Source: Solobacterium sp.
Lineage (GTDB): Bacteria > Bacillota_I > Bacilli_A > Erysipelotrichales > Erysipelotrichaceae
DNA length: 64,000 nucleotides
Assembly: GCA_017510405.1 (NCBI GenBank)
Contig: JAFWNG010000008.1
Span: forward strand, 1-64,000
Reading direction: 5' to 3'
Each line of letters begins with the position of its first letter. Within the stretch, counting starts at the first letter, position 1. The notes beneath the pieces are model-generated. The model was not told where the DNA came from and ran no database searches. It saw nothing but the letters and a program-made list of their open reading frames with translations. Positions 13,231-40,502 of the stretch are shown piece by piece. Both the position numbers and the translations under genes were made by a program.

Positions 13231-15894
13231 TTATGATTCCGCAGCAGTCTCCGCCGGGTCATCCGGCTGCGCAGCCGCTTCCGCACCGTCATCCGATGCA
13301 TAGGAAGGCTCTGCCGGAACAAGACGCGGCATGATCACTCTGGTATTGTAGCTGGCCAGTGTGGCAACAGCAGCGTAATAGACGCCGAGCGACAGCATAT
13401 GGCTCAGGAATGTCGTACCGTTGATAATGTTATTCATCAGCAGGATACCGGATATGAACAGCAGCAGCGATCCTGTGAAGATCCGCCGGTCCTGGTTAAA
13501 CGAAGAGGTCACCATCGCAAGCGCAGCCCAGAGATACAGGATCCCAACAATACGCAAGACTCCGAACTCTCCCTCTATGACCGTCATGCTGCCGATGCCG
13601 GCAACACACAAAACGATCCAGTTCACGATCTGGCGTTTTTCCGGTTTTTCTTCTTTCACATATGCCCACGTCAGAAGTATATACGCGGCGATATGCAGCA
13701 GGGATCCGTACAGACTCAGCGTCATGGTCAGATCCGCCAGCATGAGAGCCAGCAGACCGAGAATGACGAATCCGCCAAGTTTTGTCCGCCGCTTCAGCCA
13801 GCCGAAGAAGGACATGAGCACCGACAGCAGACCGATCGCAGACTTGAAGATCAGCAGTACTTTTCCGGAATCCGGGAACAGTTCGGCGTAGAACTGCATG
13901 ATTACAAACAGCAGCATGATCGAGAACGCGCAGATAAACGGCAGCGCCCGGTATTTCGTTCCCGCCGGGATCCAGCCAAGACGCACTCTTCGCTTAAACC
14001 GCAGTTTTCCGATGGAATACGCAATCCAGAGGAACAGCAGAGAAATAAATCCCATCACGCCGGCTATGAAATACAGCACGGTCCTGCGCCAGTTCGTCAC
14101 GAAGTATTTCGGCCGTGACAGCTGGGTAATAAATGTTGTTTTTGTGGTGATCGGAGTCGAATCCAATCCTTCCATGGCTTTTGCGGAAGTAGATGTTATA
14201 TGCGTGTTTCCGTCTGCCGTAAAGGTGATGTTTATATCCTGCGGCTCCTCGATCGGAATATAATACAGCGTTGCCGCATCCGGACTCTGTCTGCCCGCCG
14301 AATAATCGGTTTCCATAAACGACATCATGGTGTCCTTATCTGTCCTGTCGACACGCAGACTGTACTCCGCATCGCGGGGGAAAAAGATCCGTATATCCGA
14401 TTCTGTATAATCCATATACACGTTTCCTTCCGGTGCAACACGTTCTTTTTTCGGAAGTATTTCGACCATCTGGTCCTCTACATCCAGATACTCGAATGCT
14501 TTGATCTTCTCCAGTTCGATCCCGTCCCGCATCAGCGTCAGATCGGCAGGAGTATCTACAAACAGAATGGTGTATTTTGTAGCGTTCTGATACAGCAGGT
14601 CTCCCGAATCCGCCGAGAAGATCCAGGATACATACAGTTCCGGCGTATGCGCCTGCAGCATGTTCGCACCAATGGACGCCGAACGGTTCCAGCGGCGGAA
14701 TATGCTTCCGGAGTCAACGAAGTCACGGGCAATGAGCGTCAGATAGTTCAGCAGCATATCTGCGTCTTCCTGTGTCGTTTCATTGATAAAGATCGAATCG
14801 TTCGCAATCTCCAGAAGACGGGATAGGATATTGACCGGATTGCGGTCTTCCCAGATATGAATAAGCTGATACTGCAGGGCAGCCGTATACAGCGCCGAAG
14901 ACGGACACAGCGTCAGCAGATAGGAAAGAATGTCACGGATCATCCAGTCGGTCTCTTCGTTATACCAGTAGTCGATCCCGGTGATTTCTTTGTATACGGC
15001 ATCGGCGCGGGCACGCTTTATTTTGAAGTCAGAGTCGGTCTCGAGTGCCGGCAGGAACAGTGTCGTACCATACCGCTCATAGCCCCAGTCCGCATAAGGC
15101 ACCATGGGCACCGGATCCTGTTTTCCGACGATATTGTAGATATTCCGGTAACGGTCATAGTCCTCATCAATAACTGTGCGCGGCGTCGCATAGGTATAGG
15201 CAAAGACGGTCTCCTGGGAGAAGGTGTCGGAATCGGTCAGGCGGGCTGCCGTGATATTGGAGATTGCGGCGGCGCGGCTGAATCCGGAGATCCACACTTT
15301 CATCGGACCGGTAAGATGATTTGCCGCAATATAACCGAAGATACGGTCATAGATCAGACGGGAAGAGCGGTCAAATCCGTCATGCATTTTGCCGTTTCCA
15401 ATGCTGAAATTGGATTCCCATTCATCCACATATCCCTGTCCGCAGACACCGACTGCAATCAGTTCAAATGACTCATCCCCGTCTGTGATCTTCTGATGCC
15501 CCATGACGGTGGATACTGTGTACATGTTGGGATCCTTATCATAGTCATCACTGCGGAGATCACGGAAATGCGCTTCGGTCAGGAAGTTTGTAAGGTTCAT
15601 ATCCGTACTTGTAAAACCCTGTTCAACCGATGAATTCGGCCGGAATGCCGACGTAGCCAGTCCCAGTGACAGTTTGGCAAGATCATGCGAATAGATCCGC
15701 GCGTCCTGACAGAACCACTGCGGATTGAACGGCACTTCCATCGTATGATTCTTTTTCGTCGTCAGAGTATAGAAACGTGAATGGATCATGATCGTCTGAT
15801 CATCATCCTCCTCTGCCTGAACAGGAACCATACACAGTATCAGTGTCAGTACACACAGTAAAACTGCCAGAAATTGTTTCCACGTTTTTCTCAT
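13231..15894 (-). CDS. Secreted lipase-like hydrolase fused to a YhhN-like membrane domain
   Basis: 887 residues. The signal peptide is about 1-27. The next 350 residues resemble class 3 lipases: the nucleophile elbow is KVWISGFSRAAA with Ser near 208, and YNIVGKQDPVPMVPY carries a candidate acid Asp. A beta-rich linker follows to about 620, then eight to nine membrane helices to about 865 and an acidic tail. The helices follow the spacing of YhhN/TMEM86 lysoplasmalogenases (ALMLADLTMT, HIAAYILLTWAY, FISGILLMNN), but the second acidic SD site reads SG here. The hydrolase assignment is moderately sure; the YhhN relation is inference. AGGAAG precedes the ATG. Confidence 0.7.
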   Translation of the reverse strand: MRKTWKQFLAVLLCVLTLILCMVPVQAEEDDDQTIMIHSRFYTLTTKKNHTMEVPFNPQWFCQDARIYSHDLAKLSLGLATSAFRPNSSVEQGFTSTDMNLTNFLTEAHFRDLRSDDYDKDPNMYTVSTVMGHQKITDGDESFELIAVGVCGQGYVDEWESNFSIGNGKMHDGFDRSSRLIYDRIFGYIAANHLTGPMKVWISGFSRAAAISNITAARLTDSDTFSQETVFAYTYATPRTVIDEDYDRYRNIYNIVGKQDPVPMVPYADWGYERYGTTLFLPALETDSDFKIKRARADAVYKEITGIDYWYNEETDWMIRDILSYLLTLCPSSALYTAALQYQLIHIWEDRNPVNILSRLLEIANDSIFINETTQEDADMLLNYLTLIARDFVDSGSIFRRWNRSASIGANMLQAHTPELYVSWIFSADSGDLLYQNATKYTILFVDTPADLTLMRDGIELEKIKAFEYLDVEDQMVEILPKKERVAPEGNVYMDYTESDIRIFFPRDAEYSLRVDRTDKDTMMSFMETDYSAGRQSPDAATLYYIPIEEPQDINITFTADGNTHITSTSAKAMEGLDSTPITTKTTFITQLSRPKYFVTNWRRTVLYFIAGVMGFISLLFLWIAYSIGKLRFKRRVRLGWIPAGTKYRALPFICAFSIMLLFVIMQFYAELFPDSGKVLLIFKSAIGLLSVLMSFFGWLKRRTKLGGFVILGLLALMLADLTMTLSLYGSLLHIAAYILLTWAYVKEEKPEKRQIVNWIVLCVAGIGSMTVIEGEFGVLRIVGILYLWAALAMVTSSFNQDRRIFTGSLLLFISGILLMNNIINGTTFLSHMLSLGVYYAAVATLASYNTRVIMPRLVPAEPSYASDDGAEAAAQPDDPAETAAES

Positions 15895-38218: not shown

Positions 38219-38449
38219 TTATTTATAGCGGATCACATGCACCAGTTCGTCGATCGTCATGCCGAGCGCCTGCGACAGAGCCAGCGCCGTTGCGATCTCC
38301 ATTCGTCCTATATCTCTCTTCATTCCGTTCAGAAGTGTCGTATAGGGAACATCGGCGAGCTTCGCTGCCCGGTAGGCGGTCAGTCCTTTTTCTGTCAGCA
38401 GGATCTGCCAGGCTTTTTTCTGCTGGGAATCATTCCGGATCTCATCCAT
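38219..38449 (-). CDS. Small XRE-type helix-turn-helix protein
   Basis: 76 residues from the ATG at 38449 preceded by GTGAGGT. It is essentially one helix-turn-helix domain: GLTAYRAAKLADVPYTTLLN forms the recognition region, and LSQALGMTIDELVHV is the usual closing helix. No effector or membrane domain. It lies between the YkuK gene and an LCP gene. The inverted repeat at 38102-38127 is a possible nearby target, by inference only. Confidence 0.8.
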   Translation of the reverse strand: MDEIRNDSQQKKAWQILLTEKGLTAYRAAKLADVPYTTLLNGMKRDIGRMEIATALALSQALGMTIDELVHVIRYK

Positions 38450-38543
38450 GCGGTATACCTCACAAGGTATGATACACTGTTTTTCCCCGGAAAGCAATTT
38501 TACATGGGAAAAGGCCTGTATATATGGGATATACAGACCTGTA

Positions 38544-39065
38544 TCACTTGGAGTACTTGTCCGCAATGCTGGACGCAGCGTAAGAATCCGGCTTGATCTC
38601 GCAGTCGTAGCCCATTGCTTTTACCCAGCCTTCCAGCTCGTTGATGTATTCACGGGTCGGGCCCTGCTTGCCTACATCAATGTGGACAGTCAGATGTACA
38701 TTGGACTTTTCGTCTGTGATGTCGAAATCCTTCTCCAGCAGTGCTTCCAGCAAAAGTTCTGCGGCATCCAGCGAGATCTGCGTCTCCGTGTGCAGCTTGT
38801 ACTGAAGCTGTCCTTTGCGGAACGGTTCATGGTACATCGTGCGAACGAAGAAGATACCGCCGTTGTGCAGACGGTGCAGCGTGACAGCCAGTACGATCTT
38901 TGTTTCATCGTATGTCTGGGAGTCGGTGCCGATCGCCAGGACGTACTCCTTTTCCGGCTCTTTGCCGATCCAGCTTACGATCTTGTCCGCCATGTCGCGG
39001 AATGCCATAACATGTCCGCTGCCGTCACGGAAACGTGTATCCATTGTCAGTTTCAGCTCGCTCAT
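38544..39065 (-). CDS. YkuK family (DUF458) RNase H-like protein
   Basis: 173 residues. IGTDSQTYDETKIVLAVTLH near the N-terminal third carries the Asp of an RNase H-like fold, and VHIDVGKQGPTREYINELEGWV is the second signature of the YkuK/DUF458 family. These proteins are common in spore-forming and related Bacillota and lack a proven function. A GGAGGT site precedes the ATG at 39065. The first tRNA of the array ends only 22 bases upstream of its start, so its mRNA could arise by processing of the tRNA precursor. Confidence 0.88.
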   Translation of the reverse strand: MSELKLTMDTRFRDGSGHVMAFRDMADKIVSWIGKEPEKEYVLAIGTDSQTYDETKIVLAVTLHRLHNGGIFFVRTMYHEPFRKGQLQYKLHTETQISLDAAELLLEALLEKDFDITDEKSNVHLTVHIDVGKQGPTREYINELEGWVKAMGYDCEIKPDSYAASSIADKYSK

Positions 39066-39087
39066 TTCCGGTACCTCCTTTCTTCAG

Positions 39088-39159
39088 CGGTCCCTGCAGG
39101 ACTCGAACCTGCAACTTCCGGTTAACGGCCGGGCGTTTTCCCATTGAAACTAAGAAACC
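39088..39159 (-). tRNA. tRNA-Asn(GTT), divergent
   Basis: Acceptor GGTTTCT/AGGGACC, D-stem GTTT/AAAC, anticodon loop CCGTTAA giving GTT, T-arm GCAGG-TTCGAGT-CCTGC, discriminator G, no encoded CCA. Position 33 is C rather than T, and 27-43 is a C-A mismatch. Last gene of the array and nearest to the YkuK gene. Confidence 0.75.
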
Positions 39160-39210
39160 ATTCGTGTCGGACAGAAGCAGTTCTGTCATCTGTACAGGCC
39201 GCGCTGCGGT

Positions 39211-39282
39211 CTGTTTCCGCCGGGTATGATCCGACATCCCCTGATGATCATCAGGTGTATTAGCCGCTTATACGAAGAAACA
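39211..39282 (-). pseudogene. tRNA-like gene with abnormal anticodon loop
   Basis: Acceptor TGTTTCT/GGAAACA, D-stem GTAT/ATAC, and T-stem GTCGG/CCGGC are intact. The T-loop is ATCATAC, with the same A54/T58 exchange as the Thr copies of this array. The anticodon arm is two bases short: CCTGA/TCAGG leaves a six-base loop TGATCA, so no anticodon can be assigned. Either a decayed tRNA or a non-decoding tRNA-like RNA. Confidence 0.55.
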
Positions 39283-39317
39283 AGCTGCACAGAACCATCA
39301 CCCTCCATCCGGCACAG

Positions 39318-39391
39318 TGCCTCCCGCCGGGTACGATCCGGCAGTCTCCTGATTACAAGACAGGTGCGTTCTCCATTTCTGCCAGAGAGGC
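39318..39391 (-). tRNA. tRNA-Thr(TGT), divergent T-loop
   Basis: Acceptor GCCTCTC/GGGAGGC with discriminator A. Anticodon loop CTTGTAA gives TGT, with a T-T mismatch at 31-39. T-arm GCCGG-ATCGTAC-CCGGC has A54 and T58 in place of T54 and A58. The D-stem is weak. Nearly identical in body to the genes at 39717 and 39921, which carry other anticodons. Confidence 0.65.
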
Positions 39392-39422
39392 ATTTTTTAT
39401 GATCCGGACAAATGTCCGGAAG

Positions 39423-39495
39423 TCGACAGGGCGGGATTCGAACCCGCAGACATCTGTTTCTAAGACAGACTGCTTTGCCGGTTTGCTACCTGCCG
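39423..39495 (-). tRNA. tRNA with TAG anticodon and short variable arm (copy 1)
   Basis: Acceptor CGGCAGG/CCTGTCG, discriminator A, canonical T-arm GCGGG-TTCGAAT-CCCGC, anticodon stem TCTGT/ACAGA with loop CTTAGAA, so the anticodon is TAG (reads CUA). Leucine tRNAs are class II, but here the variable region is only five bases, so identity is uncertain. Identical to 39824-39896. Confidence 0.65.
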
Positions 39496-39541
39496 ATGAT
39501 CGGTGCTGGGCACCGGTAATACATCGTCCCCTCCCGGGGAG

Positions 39542-39612
39542 TCAGAGTGGAAGGATTTGAACCCTCATATCGCGGTCCCAGGCCGCGGGTCCTGCCATTG
39601 GACGACACCCTG
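39542..39612 (-). tRNA. tRNA-Pro(TGG) with C33
   Basis: Acceptor CAGGGTG/CACTCTG (C1-G72, A73 as in bacterial Pro tRNAs), D-stem GTCC/GGAC, anticodon stem CGCGG/CCGCG, loop CCTGGGA giving TGG with G37, T-loop TTCAAAT. Position 33 is C. Its 5' end is one base from the 3' CCA of the next tRNA. Confidence 0.75.
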
Positions 39613-39613
39613 A

Positions 39614-39689
39614 TGGTTGCAGCGACGGGATTTGAACCCGCATTGTACGGCTTATGGGGCCGCTTCGGAACCGTTCCGGATACGCTGCG
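39614..39689 (-). tRNA. tRNA with CAT anticodon, initiator-like ends, C33 (copy 1)
   Basis: Acceptor CGCAGCG/CGCTGCA leaves a C1-A72 mismatch as in bacterial initiator tRNA, A73 and an encoded CCA. Anticodon loop CCCATAA gives CAT with C33. T-loop TTCAAAT is canonical. The D-arm is abnormal and the three-GC initiator anticodon stem is absent, so initiator function is doubtful. Confidence 0.6.
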
Positions 39690-39716
39690 ATAAATTACGG
39701 TGCTTTTCAGCACCAG

Positions 39717-39790
39717 TGCCTCCCGCCGGGTACGATCCGGCAATCTCCTGCTTACTGGGCAGCTGCGTTCTCCGTTTGCGCCAGAGAGGC
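39717..39790 (-). tRNA. tRNA-Thr(AGT), divergent T-loop, C33
   Basis: Same body as the other Thr copies: acceptor GCCTCTC/GGGAGGC, A73, T-loop ATCGTAC. Anticodon loop CCAGTAA gives AGT with C at 33. An A34 Thr anticodon is unusual in bacteria. Confidence 0.6.
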
Positions 39791-39823
39791 ATTTCTTTTA
39801 TGATCCGGACAAGTGTCCGGAAG

Positions 39824-39896
39824 TCGACAGGGCGGGATTCGAACCCGCAGACATCTGTTTCTAAGACAGACTGCTTTGCCGGTTTGCTACCTGCCG
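39824..39896 (-). tRNA. tRNA with TAG anticodon and short variable arm (copy 2)
   Basis: Identical in its 73 bases to the copy at 39423-39495, including the loop CTTAGAA and the following hairpin CCGGACA/TGTCCGG (one loop base differs). This shows a recent segmental duplication. Confidence 0.65.
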
Positions 39897-39920
39897 ATAT
39901 ACGGTGCTTTTCAGCACCAG

Positions 39921-39994
39921 TGCCTCCCGCCGGGTACGATCCGGCAATCTCCTGTTTACGATACAGGTGCGTTCTCCGTTTCTGCCAGAGAGGC
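39921..39994 (-). tRNA. tRNA-Thr(CGT), divergent T-loop
   Basis: Acceptor GCCTCTC/GGGAGGC, perfect anticodon stem CCTGT/ACAGG, loop ATCGTAA giving CGT with normal T33. T-arm GCCGG-ATCGTAC-CCGGC. It has the best-paired anticodon arm of the three Thr copies and may be the parental form. Confidence 0.65.
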
Positions 39995-40013
39995 ATATTT
40001 CCCTTCCGGGAAG

Positions 40014-40086
40014 TCAGAACGAAAGGATTCGAACCTTCATCTCACGGTTCCGGACCGCGGATCCTAAGCCATTGGACGACATTCTG
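40014..40086 (-). tRNA. tRNA-Pro(CGG) with C33
   Basis: Acceptor CAGAATG/CGTTCTG, A73, D-stem GTCC/GGAT, loop TCCGGAA giving CGG. C33 is present as in the TGG copy, and position 37 is A instead of the G expected in Pro tRNAs. T-loop TTCGAAT is canonical. Confidence 0.7.
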
Positions 40087-40087
40087 A

Positions 40088-40163
40088 TGGTTGCAGCGAC
40101 GGGATTCGAACCCGCATTCTACGGTGTATGAGGCCGCTTCGGAGCCGTTCCGAACACGCTGCG
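40088..40163 (-). tRNA. tRNA with CAT anticodon, initiator-like ends (copy 2)
   Basis: Same acceptor (C1-A72), A73 and encoded CCA as the copy at 39614. Anticodon loop CTCATAC gives CAT with T33, but the anticodon stem is broken by a C-A pair at 31-39. The D-arm can form a six-base hairpin TTCGGA/TCCGAA. One base separates its CCA from the Pro gene. Confidence 0.6.
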
Positions 40164-40208
40164 ATGAAAGACTGTGCTGACAAACTCCTTGTCATATTCA
40201 CACAGTCA

Positions 40209-40281
40209 GTACCCGCTGGCGGGGTCGAACCGCCATTGCAGCCTTATCAGGACTGAGTACTGCCTTTATACGAAACGGGTA
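40209..40281 (-). tRNA. tRNA-Ile(GAT)
   Basis: Acceptor TACCCGT/GCGGGTA, D-stem GTAT/GTAC, anticodon stem CAGTC/GGCTG with loop CTGATAA giving GAT, T-arm GGCGG-TTCGACC-CCGCC. The discriminator is C, not the A expected for isoleucine. First gene of the array, starting one base after a terminator T tract. Confidence 0.7.
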
Positions 40282-40282
40282 G

Positions 40283-40326
40283 AAAAAGGAAAGAGCGGTA
40301 TACCTGATCCGGTATGCCGCTCTTTC
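40283..40326 (-). terminator. Strong terminator directly before the tRNA array
   Basis: GAAAGAGCGGCATACC pairs with GGTATACCGCTCTTTC (one G-T), then a TTTTT run ends one base before tRNA-Ile. A transcript from the small ORF upstream would have to read through it to reach the tRNAs. Confidence 0.8.
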
Positions 40327-40350
40327 ACTGGACGAAATGACGCTCACGCA

Positions 40351-40449
40351 TCATTTCGGACGGGTGCTTTTACGGCATGCGGAAAACATATCACTTCCCA
40401 TCGGGAGGCTCAGAATCAGTTCAAATGTTCTCGTATTTGTATTCTTCAT
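40351..40449 (-). CDS. 32-residue ORF of unknown function upstream of the tRNA array
   Basis: ATG at 40449, eight bases after AAAGGAG, stop TGA at 40351. The product begins MKNTNTRTFELILSLPMGSD and ends with a basic tail (CRKSTRPK). No family recognised. It is followed by a CGAAATGA/TCATTTCG hairpin overlapping the stop codon and by the terminator at 40283-40326. Upstream are TTGACA and two perfect ACCTTATAAGGT palindromes, so it is probably a regulated transcript. It could be a real small protein or a leader peptide; no coding statistics are possible at this size. Confidence 0.45.
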   Translation of the reverse strand: MKNTNTRTFELILSLPMGSDMFSACRKSTRPK

Positions 40450-40466
40450 CTCTGTTCTCCTTTACC

Positions 40467-40502
40467 ACCTTATAAGGTACATTACCTTATAAGGTTTGTC
40501 AA
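40467..40502 (-). promoter_or_regulatory. Twin ACCTTATAAGGT operators with TTGACA
   Basis: Two identical 12-bp palindromes (40467-40478 and 40484-40495) are five bases apart. TTGACA (40502-40497) abuts the distal copy. No good -10 box lies at 17 bases; TATAAG lies 22 bases from it inside the proximal palindrome, suggesting an activator-dependent or overlapping arrangement. Confidence 0.6.

Follow-up and report, generated by a model that had tools for sequence, protein, structure and literature searches.

Why does a bacterial chromosome endowed with a complete canonical set of tRNA genes carry a dense array of additional, divergent ones? The question is raised by a 64,000-nucleotide stretch of Solobacterium sp. 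DNA (positions 1 to 64,000 of contig JAFWNG010000008.1, assembly GCA_017510405.1; this whole stretch is called the window), in which 11 tRNA genes, all on the minus strand, occupy positions 39087-40280 at a density of about nine per kb. The answer that we consider likely, from the sequence features described below, is that these genes form a regulated accessory tRNA operon under leader-peptide attenuation, which would sense the loss of the tRNAs that it encodes and supply substitutes for them.

The array and its control region

The tRNAs called by ARAGORN are, in order, Asn GTT, Thr TGT, Leu TAG, Pro TGG, Met CAT, Thr AGT, Leu TAG, Thr CGT, Pro CGG, Met CAT and Ile GAT, and all 11 score above the Rfam tRNA gathering threshold. 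A previous sequence-only reading had counted twelve tRNA or tRNA-like genes; the twelfth (39212-39281) is visible only by eye and was missed by both ARAGORN and Rfam. That reading also took the array for an accessory one, on a chromosome region without phage genes, which agrees with the bacterial genes found on its flanks, and for part of something undescribed, which was borne out. Outside its account were the promoter, operator, leader open reading frame (ORF) and terminator at 40283-40502, a helix-turn-helix (HTH) regulator gene at 38222-38449, the inclusion of a YkuK gene in the same apparent operon, and the other accessory arrays of the genome, all located outside the window. The features of the array and of its control region are, from upstream to downstream:

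40497..40502, minus strand: -35-like hexamer TTGACA of the putative array promoter, from conservation of the promoter/operator pattern; the -10 hexamer is weak
40484..40495: operator palindrome ACCTTATAAGGT, copy 1, exact match
40467..40478: operator palindrome ACCTTATAAGGT, copy 2, exact match
40351..40449, minus strand: leader ORF MKNTNTRTFELILSLPMGSDMFSACRKSTRPK, ending at a stop codon, with an AAAGGAG Shine-Dalgarno sequence; it contains N, T, L, I, P and M, the identities of the array tRNAs
40283..40325, minus strand: intrinsic terminator between the leader and the first tRNA, a hairpin of about -25 kcal/mol followed by CCTTTTT
40209..40280, minus strand: tRNA-Ile(GAT), first tRNA of the operon (ARAGORN, Rfam), with an orthologue in genome G004
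40088..40163, minus strand: tRNA-Met(CAT), initiator-like with C1-A72, CCA encoded (ARAGORN)
40013..40086, minus strand: tRNA-Pro(CGG), C33 (ARAGORN, Rfam)
39920..39994, minus strand: tRNA-Thr(CGT), A54/U58 in the T-loop (ARAGORN)
39823..39896, minus strand: tRNA-Leu(TAG), without long variable arm, phage type (ARAGORN)
39716..39790, minus strand: tRNA-Thr(AGT), A54/U58, C33 (ARAGORN)
39614..39689, minus strand: tRNA-Met(CAT), initiator-like, CCA encoded (ARAGORN)
39541..39612, minus strand: tRNA-Pro(TGG), C33 (ARAGORN)
39422..39495, minus strand: tRNA-Leu(TAG), same sequence as the copy at 39823..39896 (ARAGORN)
39317..39391, minus strand: tRNA-Thr(TGT), A54/U58 (ARAGORN)
39212..39281, minus strand: degenerate tRNA-like copy with a 6-nt anticodon loop and an ATCATAC T-loop (by eye)
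39087..39159, minus strand: tRNA-Asn(GTT), C33, last tRNA of the array (ARAGORN, Rfam)

The window belongs to a rumen Solobacterium-like metagenome-assembled genome (MAG) of 3.27 Mb, G000; G004, G059 and G079 designate genomes of the same genus. G000 as a whole gives 76 tRNA matches, and the sequences inspected show a complete canonical set outside the array, including Ile, Asn, Pro, Thr and initiator Met. Most of these other tRNAs outscore the array members (up to 76 bits against 39.0-53.0 with Rfam), so that, as had been surmised, the array is neither made of high-scoring canonical tRNAs nor the only source of these identities. The sequence-only reading had nearly all members deviating at normally invariant positions. 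The divergence is real, with at least one deviation in 8 of the 11 tRNAs (positions 8, 14, 18/19, 33, 53:61, 54, 55, 56 and 58 were scored), but the claim was overstated, since both Leu copies and Ile conform. Over the three arrays of G000 that share a control region, deviations were found in 14 tRNAs out of 27, versus 1 out of 45 canonical ones; C33 was present in 9 out of 27 and 1 out of 45, respectively (P 4e-4). The A54/U58 exchange in the T-loop was seen in the accessory Thr tRNAs, in G004 Ile and in two tRNAs of a viral contig (window 39317-39994; L065:1578-1652 and 1774-1845; L104).

Leader peptides and the arrays they precede

The three G000 arrays with a common control layout are the window array (C25a) and the following two:

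C25, 77515-78355: C25b array, His, Glu, Arg, Arg, Phe, Glu, Ser, Gln
C3, 20565-21381: C3 array, Cys, Tyr, Lys, Val, Arg, Ala, Lys, Asp

Upstream of each, on the strand of the array, TTGACA is overlapped or followed by ACCTTATAAGGT; then come a Shine-Dalgarno sequence, a leader ORF of 30-45 codons, an intrinsic terminator and the tRNAs. The leader peptide of the window array (Ile, Met, Pro, Thr, Leu, Asn) reads MKNTNTRTFELILSLPMGSDM then FSAC, that of C3 (Cys, Tyr, Lys, Val, Arg, Ala, Asp) reads MMKAVMNIRRRYDKSYCKCAAYSADV then FSAR, and that of C25b (His, Glu, Arg, Phe, Ser, Gln) reads MMKEIARRHEIESFRSEYQRSHSYV then FYVC. Among the residues that precede the F, 47 out of 69 belong to the leader's own array, a value equalled by none of 200,000 shuffles. 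When eight leaders from three species were considered (C25b-1 and the G079 leaders being excluded), 91 of 185 residues matched the cognate array (0 of 300,000 shuffles) and the true leader-array pairing ranked first of 40,320. The match holds for codons too: in the five leaders examined, an array tRNA can read 67 of the 72 sensor codons that specify amino acids of the array. A short ORF with a Shine-Dalgarno sequence was found for seven leaders of G000 and G004, for G059 A and B (weak for B) and for G079; no array-matching leader was found at the canonical tRNA clusters of G000.

G059 and G079 were found through the HTH protein, and arrays lie beside its gene in both. Leader B of G059 (MMEEILRSYIEQAYRADDHSYAFV then FSAC) contains all eight identities of the array behind it, i.e. 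His, Phe, Arg, Arg, Ala, Asp, Glu, Ser and Ser, plus Tyr recognized by eye. Viral contigs carrying tRNA arrays were scanned blind, with swapped leader-array pairs as control. The top-ranked hit was the L088 leader VKHLLSSSLSLSSLCYLLSG, the best of 57 ORFs, which precedes a set of Leu, Tyr, Cys and Ser tRNAs. In its stretch TTA to AGC, each of the 16 codons can be read by a tRNA of the array, and together they cover 11 of 11 anticodons (P 6.9e-7, the lowest value in 200 swap rounds being 8.8e-6). A second phage lineage, L100 and its relative L092, gave a leader match at 2.5e-4. The phage regions are:

L088:2030-4200: phage tRNA array with a matching leader and terminator/antiterminator potential
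L100:1520-3000: the same, in the second phage lineage

In our judgement, attenuation by a leader which would read the array's own tRNAs is well supported. The array members make most sense as decoding tRNAs whose shortage is sensed, because the leaders match their decoding identity at both the amino-acid and the codon levels. The same match goes against the suggestion of the sequence-only reading that the array could be a pool of decoys or a non-decoding RNA system. The unusual identity elements (no G-1:C73 in His, no long variable arm in Leu, A54/U58 T-loops in Thr) would suit tRNAs that distract tRNA-cutting enzymes or feed a tRNA-dependent side pathway, but this idea appears highly improbable: the accessory set spans 20 amino acids plus the initiator type, and the leaders would sense decoding by the same identities. 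Equally to be considered is a binning artefact, the array contigs coming from another organism, since the genome is a draft with an estimated contamination of 3.74%. We regard this as extremely improbable: C3 and C20 each carry canonical and accessory tRNAs, and the sigma factor gene carried by C25 has an orthologue in G004 (87%) as well as homologues throughout the genus, two grounds on which contamination was judged an unlikely source of the arrays. In addition, the layout recurs in independent MAGs and in JAFYHC010000065.1 (Solobacterium sp., sheep rumen).

Proposed attenuator, repressor and trigger

The terminator at 40283..40325 was omitted by a simple terminator scan, probably because of its internal mismatch and late T run; no T-box or other known riboswitch was matched in Rfam scans. 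The behaviour of the leaders was simulated by setting the ribosome on every codon in turn and predicting the fold of the RNA beyond it, with codon-shuffled leaders as control. In 10 of 10 bacterial leaders the 5' arm of the terminator was sequestered to a greater extent while the ribosome had not yet reached the FxAC segment than once it had passed (combined z 8.7). Full-equilibrium switching occurred in five leaders and in none of 60 shuffles. The cleanest switches were G004 C110 and G059 A, where the terminator probability was mostly 0-0.2 before FxAC and 0.84-0.95 after; antiterminator potential was strongest in these two and in C25b-2. Both phage leaders showed the same simulated behaviour as the bacterial ones.

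Upstream of the attenuator, the window-array promoter rests on the conserved promoter/operator pattern. The latter has exactly three matches in G000, each upstream of a tRNA array; among 70 genus genomes, one match is at a G004 array and three more have no tRNAs nearby. The candidate regulator and its own promoter are:

38457..38468: operator-like palindrome ACCTCACAAGGT in the promoter of the HTH gene; G004 counterpart ACCTCATAAGGT
38222..38449, minus strand: Cro/C1-type (XRE) HTH regulator, 76 aa, stop codon at 38219-38221

The Pfam match of this HTH protein is below the cut-off, while those of its homologues are above it. Of 70 genus genomes, four have its gene, always in the vicinity of a tRNA array, the two new ones being G059 and G079; the protein is probably the repressor acting on ACCTTATAAGGT. 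As a separate observation, G004 C17 (L121:312-1000) has another operator and an Asn-rich leader before a tRNA-Asn and a degenerate tRNA-like gene.

The mechanism that we propose is as follows. A Cro/C1-type repressor, probably the HTH protein, would act on the operator in the array promoter, and the transcripts that are started would then meet the leader-peptide attenuator. If translation of the leader is uninterrupted, the ribosome would cover the FxAC segment, the terminator hairpin would form and no tRNA would be made. If a charged tRNA is in short supply, the ribosome would stall on a sensor codon, so that the FxAC segment would pair with the 5' arm of the terminator and transcription would read through into the tRNAs (and YkuK); the output of the array would replace the scarce tRNAs. 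In nature, the attenuator would most likely be triggered when anticodon nucleases destroy host tRNAs or when RNA is damaged in some other way; the substitutes would be more resistant to cutting owing to their phage-type bodies and altered anticodon loops. That stalling turns the array on is suggested by the standard logic of leader-peptide attenuation and by the direction of the switch. We also infer the repressor role of the HTH protein, the charging and decoding of the tRNAs and the tRNA-damage trigger.

Several observations weigh against this scheme. For the window leader itself, the terminator was favoured at every stall position (0.90-0.96 at equilibrium) and a switch appeared only in the co-transcriptional measure (0.52 versus 0.20, P 0.067). 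The generic promoter scan reported no promoter upstream of the window array. The idea of a leader-array match arose from the G000 leaders, so that only G059 and the phages constitute fresh tests, and the genomes compared are draft MAGs. The match is weak for leader C25b-1 (8/21), weaker for the G004 leaders taken alone (P 0.025) and not significant at the codon level for G004 C110 (P 0.31); most of the phage arrays scanned had no matching leader. Lastly, the accessory His and type-I Leu tRNAs are without the usual HisRS and LeuRS identity features, which makes their charging uncertain.

What would the leaders report? Amino-acid starvation is the classic signal of leader-peptide attenuators, and the array could accordingly be a starvation operon, its leader sensing uncharged tRNA and its tRNAs, or YkuK, serving a stringent-type response rather than replacement. 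We hold this to be improbable, since the tRNAs that a leader follows are those of the array behind it, in phage L088 even with respect to codon type, and extra uncharged tRNA would give no relief. The loss of tRNAs is the best-fitting trigger: it is cured by new tRNA, which starvation is not; C33 is enriched in the controlled tRNAs; a similar action has been proposed for phage tRNAs (PMC10264068); and there is a link with Ro60. As to the latter, the array operator in G059 also precedes a Y-RNA-like sequence (30 bits, for an Rfam cut-off of 69) and a Ro60/TROVE gene, and in G079 the array, Y-RNA-like sequences and a TROVE gene lie in a row. By association only, the link is in keeping with a response to RNA damage, as exemplified by the RtcR repair operon (PMC7790460). 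With the YrlA model, Y-RNA-like sequences scoring about 30 bits (under the cut-off) were noted at L150:3284-4891, L141:8411-10396 and L071:19488-19586, two of them preceding Ro60/TROVE genes, and Streptomyces phage Sham has a Ro-like protein inside its tRNA region (L147:11419-13053).

A more ordinary role in codon supply, the extra tRNAs aiding translation and the leader keeping their dosage constant by feedback, with no part in damage, must also be weighed. The attenuator evidence fits any tRNA shortage, codon demand included, and simple feedback on tRNA supply is possible. However, nearly all the array anticodons duplicate canonical ones of the same genome, and the C33 enrichment, the phage-type bodies and the Ro60/Y-RNA link favour damage over demand; we thus find codon supply unlikely. 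The chances seem about even that the arrays constitute a dedicated response to tRNA loss, i.e. a repressor-controlled regulon whose leaders let the ribosome gauge which tRNAs have been destroyed and which induces nuclease-resistant substitutes, together with YkuK or Ro60/Y RNA according to the species, the same device being used by some phages.

The kinds of components involved are already known: accessory tRNA arrays, leader-peptide attenuation and XRE regulators near arrays. With the attenuators of trp, his and pheST the leaders share a short codon-rich ORF, an intrinsic terminator, an antiterminator pairing and control by ribosome position; here, however, it is tRNA genes that are controlled, through regulatory codons that those same tRNAs read, several identities together. 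Like the T-box riboswitch of Bacillota, the attenuator would control a terminator in response to the state of tRNA, but through leader codons instead of direct tRNA binding. Dense accessory tRNAs and phage links are also features of the Mycobacterium tRNA array units of chromosomes, plasmids and phages (PMC5966550), near which XRE regulators occur; the words promoter and leader are absent from the main text of that paper. A tRNA array unit is defined by at least 20 tRNAs at a minimum of two per kb (Tran 2016; Morgado 2018), whereas the window array has 11. Phage tRNAs that escape cutting by the anticodon nucleases of the host (van den Berg 2023, PMC10264068) likewise have changed anticodon loops and a proposed role in replacing destroyed host tRNAs; the set described here differs in being chromosomal, common to related species and equipped with its own operator and attenuator. 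Finally, the RtcR-controlled RNA repair operon of Salmonella, with Rsr and Y RNA, links a damaged-tRNA response to a Ro60 orthologue and a Y RNA (PMC7790460). It is regulated by damaged tRNAs via RtcR and repairs RNA, whereas the sensor proposed here is the ribosome on the leader and the output is new tRNA; moreover, Ro60/Y RNA is linked to arrays only in G059 and G079.

No report of tRNA genes attenuated through their own codons was found in the open-licence papers searched, and the response as a whole has a fair chance of being a new kind of system. If the present reading is true, it would be, to our knowledge, the first case of tRNA genes governed by ribosome stalling on the codons that those tRNAs read, and would amount to a self-correcting tRNA supply. 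The purpose of phage and accessory tRNAs has been debated for decades: on-demand production upon loss of host tRNAs would give them a testable logic and, if phage arrays use the same device, would account for phages deploying their tRNAs only once the host cuts its own. Such systems could also be found elsewhere, the sequence signature being a leader peptide that spells its array.

Origin, neighbours and other observations

Several array members resemble phage tRNAs more than the host's own ones, the clearest case being the type-I tRNA-Leu(UAG) of the window array. It has no long variable arm, and its D-arm is GCAAA..GG.AAAGC; the pattern of D-arm and anticodon loop recurs in 31 viral contigs, which mostly bear tRNA arrays, and was absent from the 391 other genomes sampled in the phylum. 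More generally, the better match was a phage rather than a canonical tRNA for 24 of 31 accessory tRNAs and for 13 of 45 canonical ones, with small margins and a larger phage reference set. The window array thus probably descends from phage-type tRNAs. A blastn search of phages with the array gave short tRNA matches only, a plasmid search gave no match, and scans of viral sequences detected neither the Thr variant nor the promoter nor the 29-nt element.

The present site is nonetheless bacterial. The flanks contain LCP, Lgt-like, GDP-mannose and glycosyltransferase genes, and no integrase, structural or conjugation gene was found among the flanking genes tested. In G004 the array is present at the same locus beside YkuK, in a shorter form, Leu-Thr-Pro-Ile. 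A prophage or island origin at this site was rejected on these two grounds, flanks and shared locus. Since G004 holds the same locus, the window array is inherited, with later expansion by duplication and anticodon changes (Thr TGT/AGT/CGT, Pro TGG/CGG). Its stems are mostly intact, some being preserved by paired changes relative to the G004 orthologues, so that most members are not decayed. That they are decaying chromosomal relics of a phage array is very unlikely: phage-type members, the degenerate copy at 39212-39281 and low tRNA scores would suit such relics, but not the locus shared with G004, the stems kept by paired changes, the duplications with anticodon shifts or the way in which leaders track array content.

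Immediately downstream of the array lies the following gene:

38544..39065, minus strand: YkuK-family RNase H-like protein (PF04308), with its own Shine-Dalgarno sequence, starting 21 nt after tRNA-Asn

This short distance makes co-transcription with the array probable. YkuK is present in 2 of 60 genus genomes, in both directly after a window-type array; it was therefore discarded as a general gene of the genus.

The other G000 arrays are located among mostly housekeeping genes. A C20 group (Gly, Gly, Trp) and a lone Leu(CAG) on C3 are without operator or leader and were not assigned to the regulon. The three arrays and the C20 group together cover 20 of 20 amino acids, including the initiator type.

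A few other features were noted. A GmrSD-type restriction protein is encoded near the C3 array (L071:12923-15160). An accessory tRNA-His with C1-G72 and A73 in place of G-1:C73 is kept in three species (L054:14283-14355, L070:8179-8253, L140:1358-1432). Genome G022, of the same genus, gave 59 tRNA matches versus the usual 41-45, without the promoter/operator pattern or the HTH gene. Beside or between array tRNAs of four species there is a structured RNA of about 110 nt with a nearly invariant 3' end, AAGATCGATGGACTTGTATCGGC. It matched no Rfam family and has changes on both sides at 17 of 31 predicted pairs. Its copies are:

L071:11181-11300
L054:14094-14206 and 14647-14760
L070:7956-8070
L140:955-1070 and 1210-1335
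L141:8041-8155

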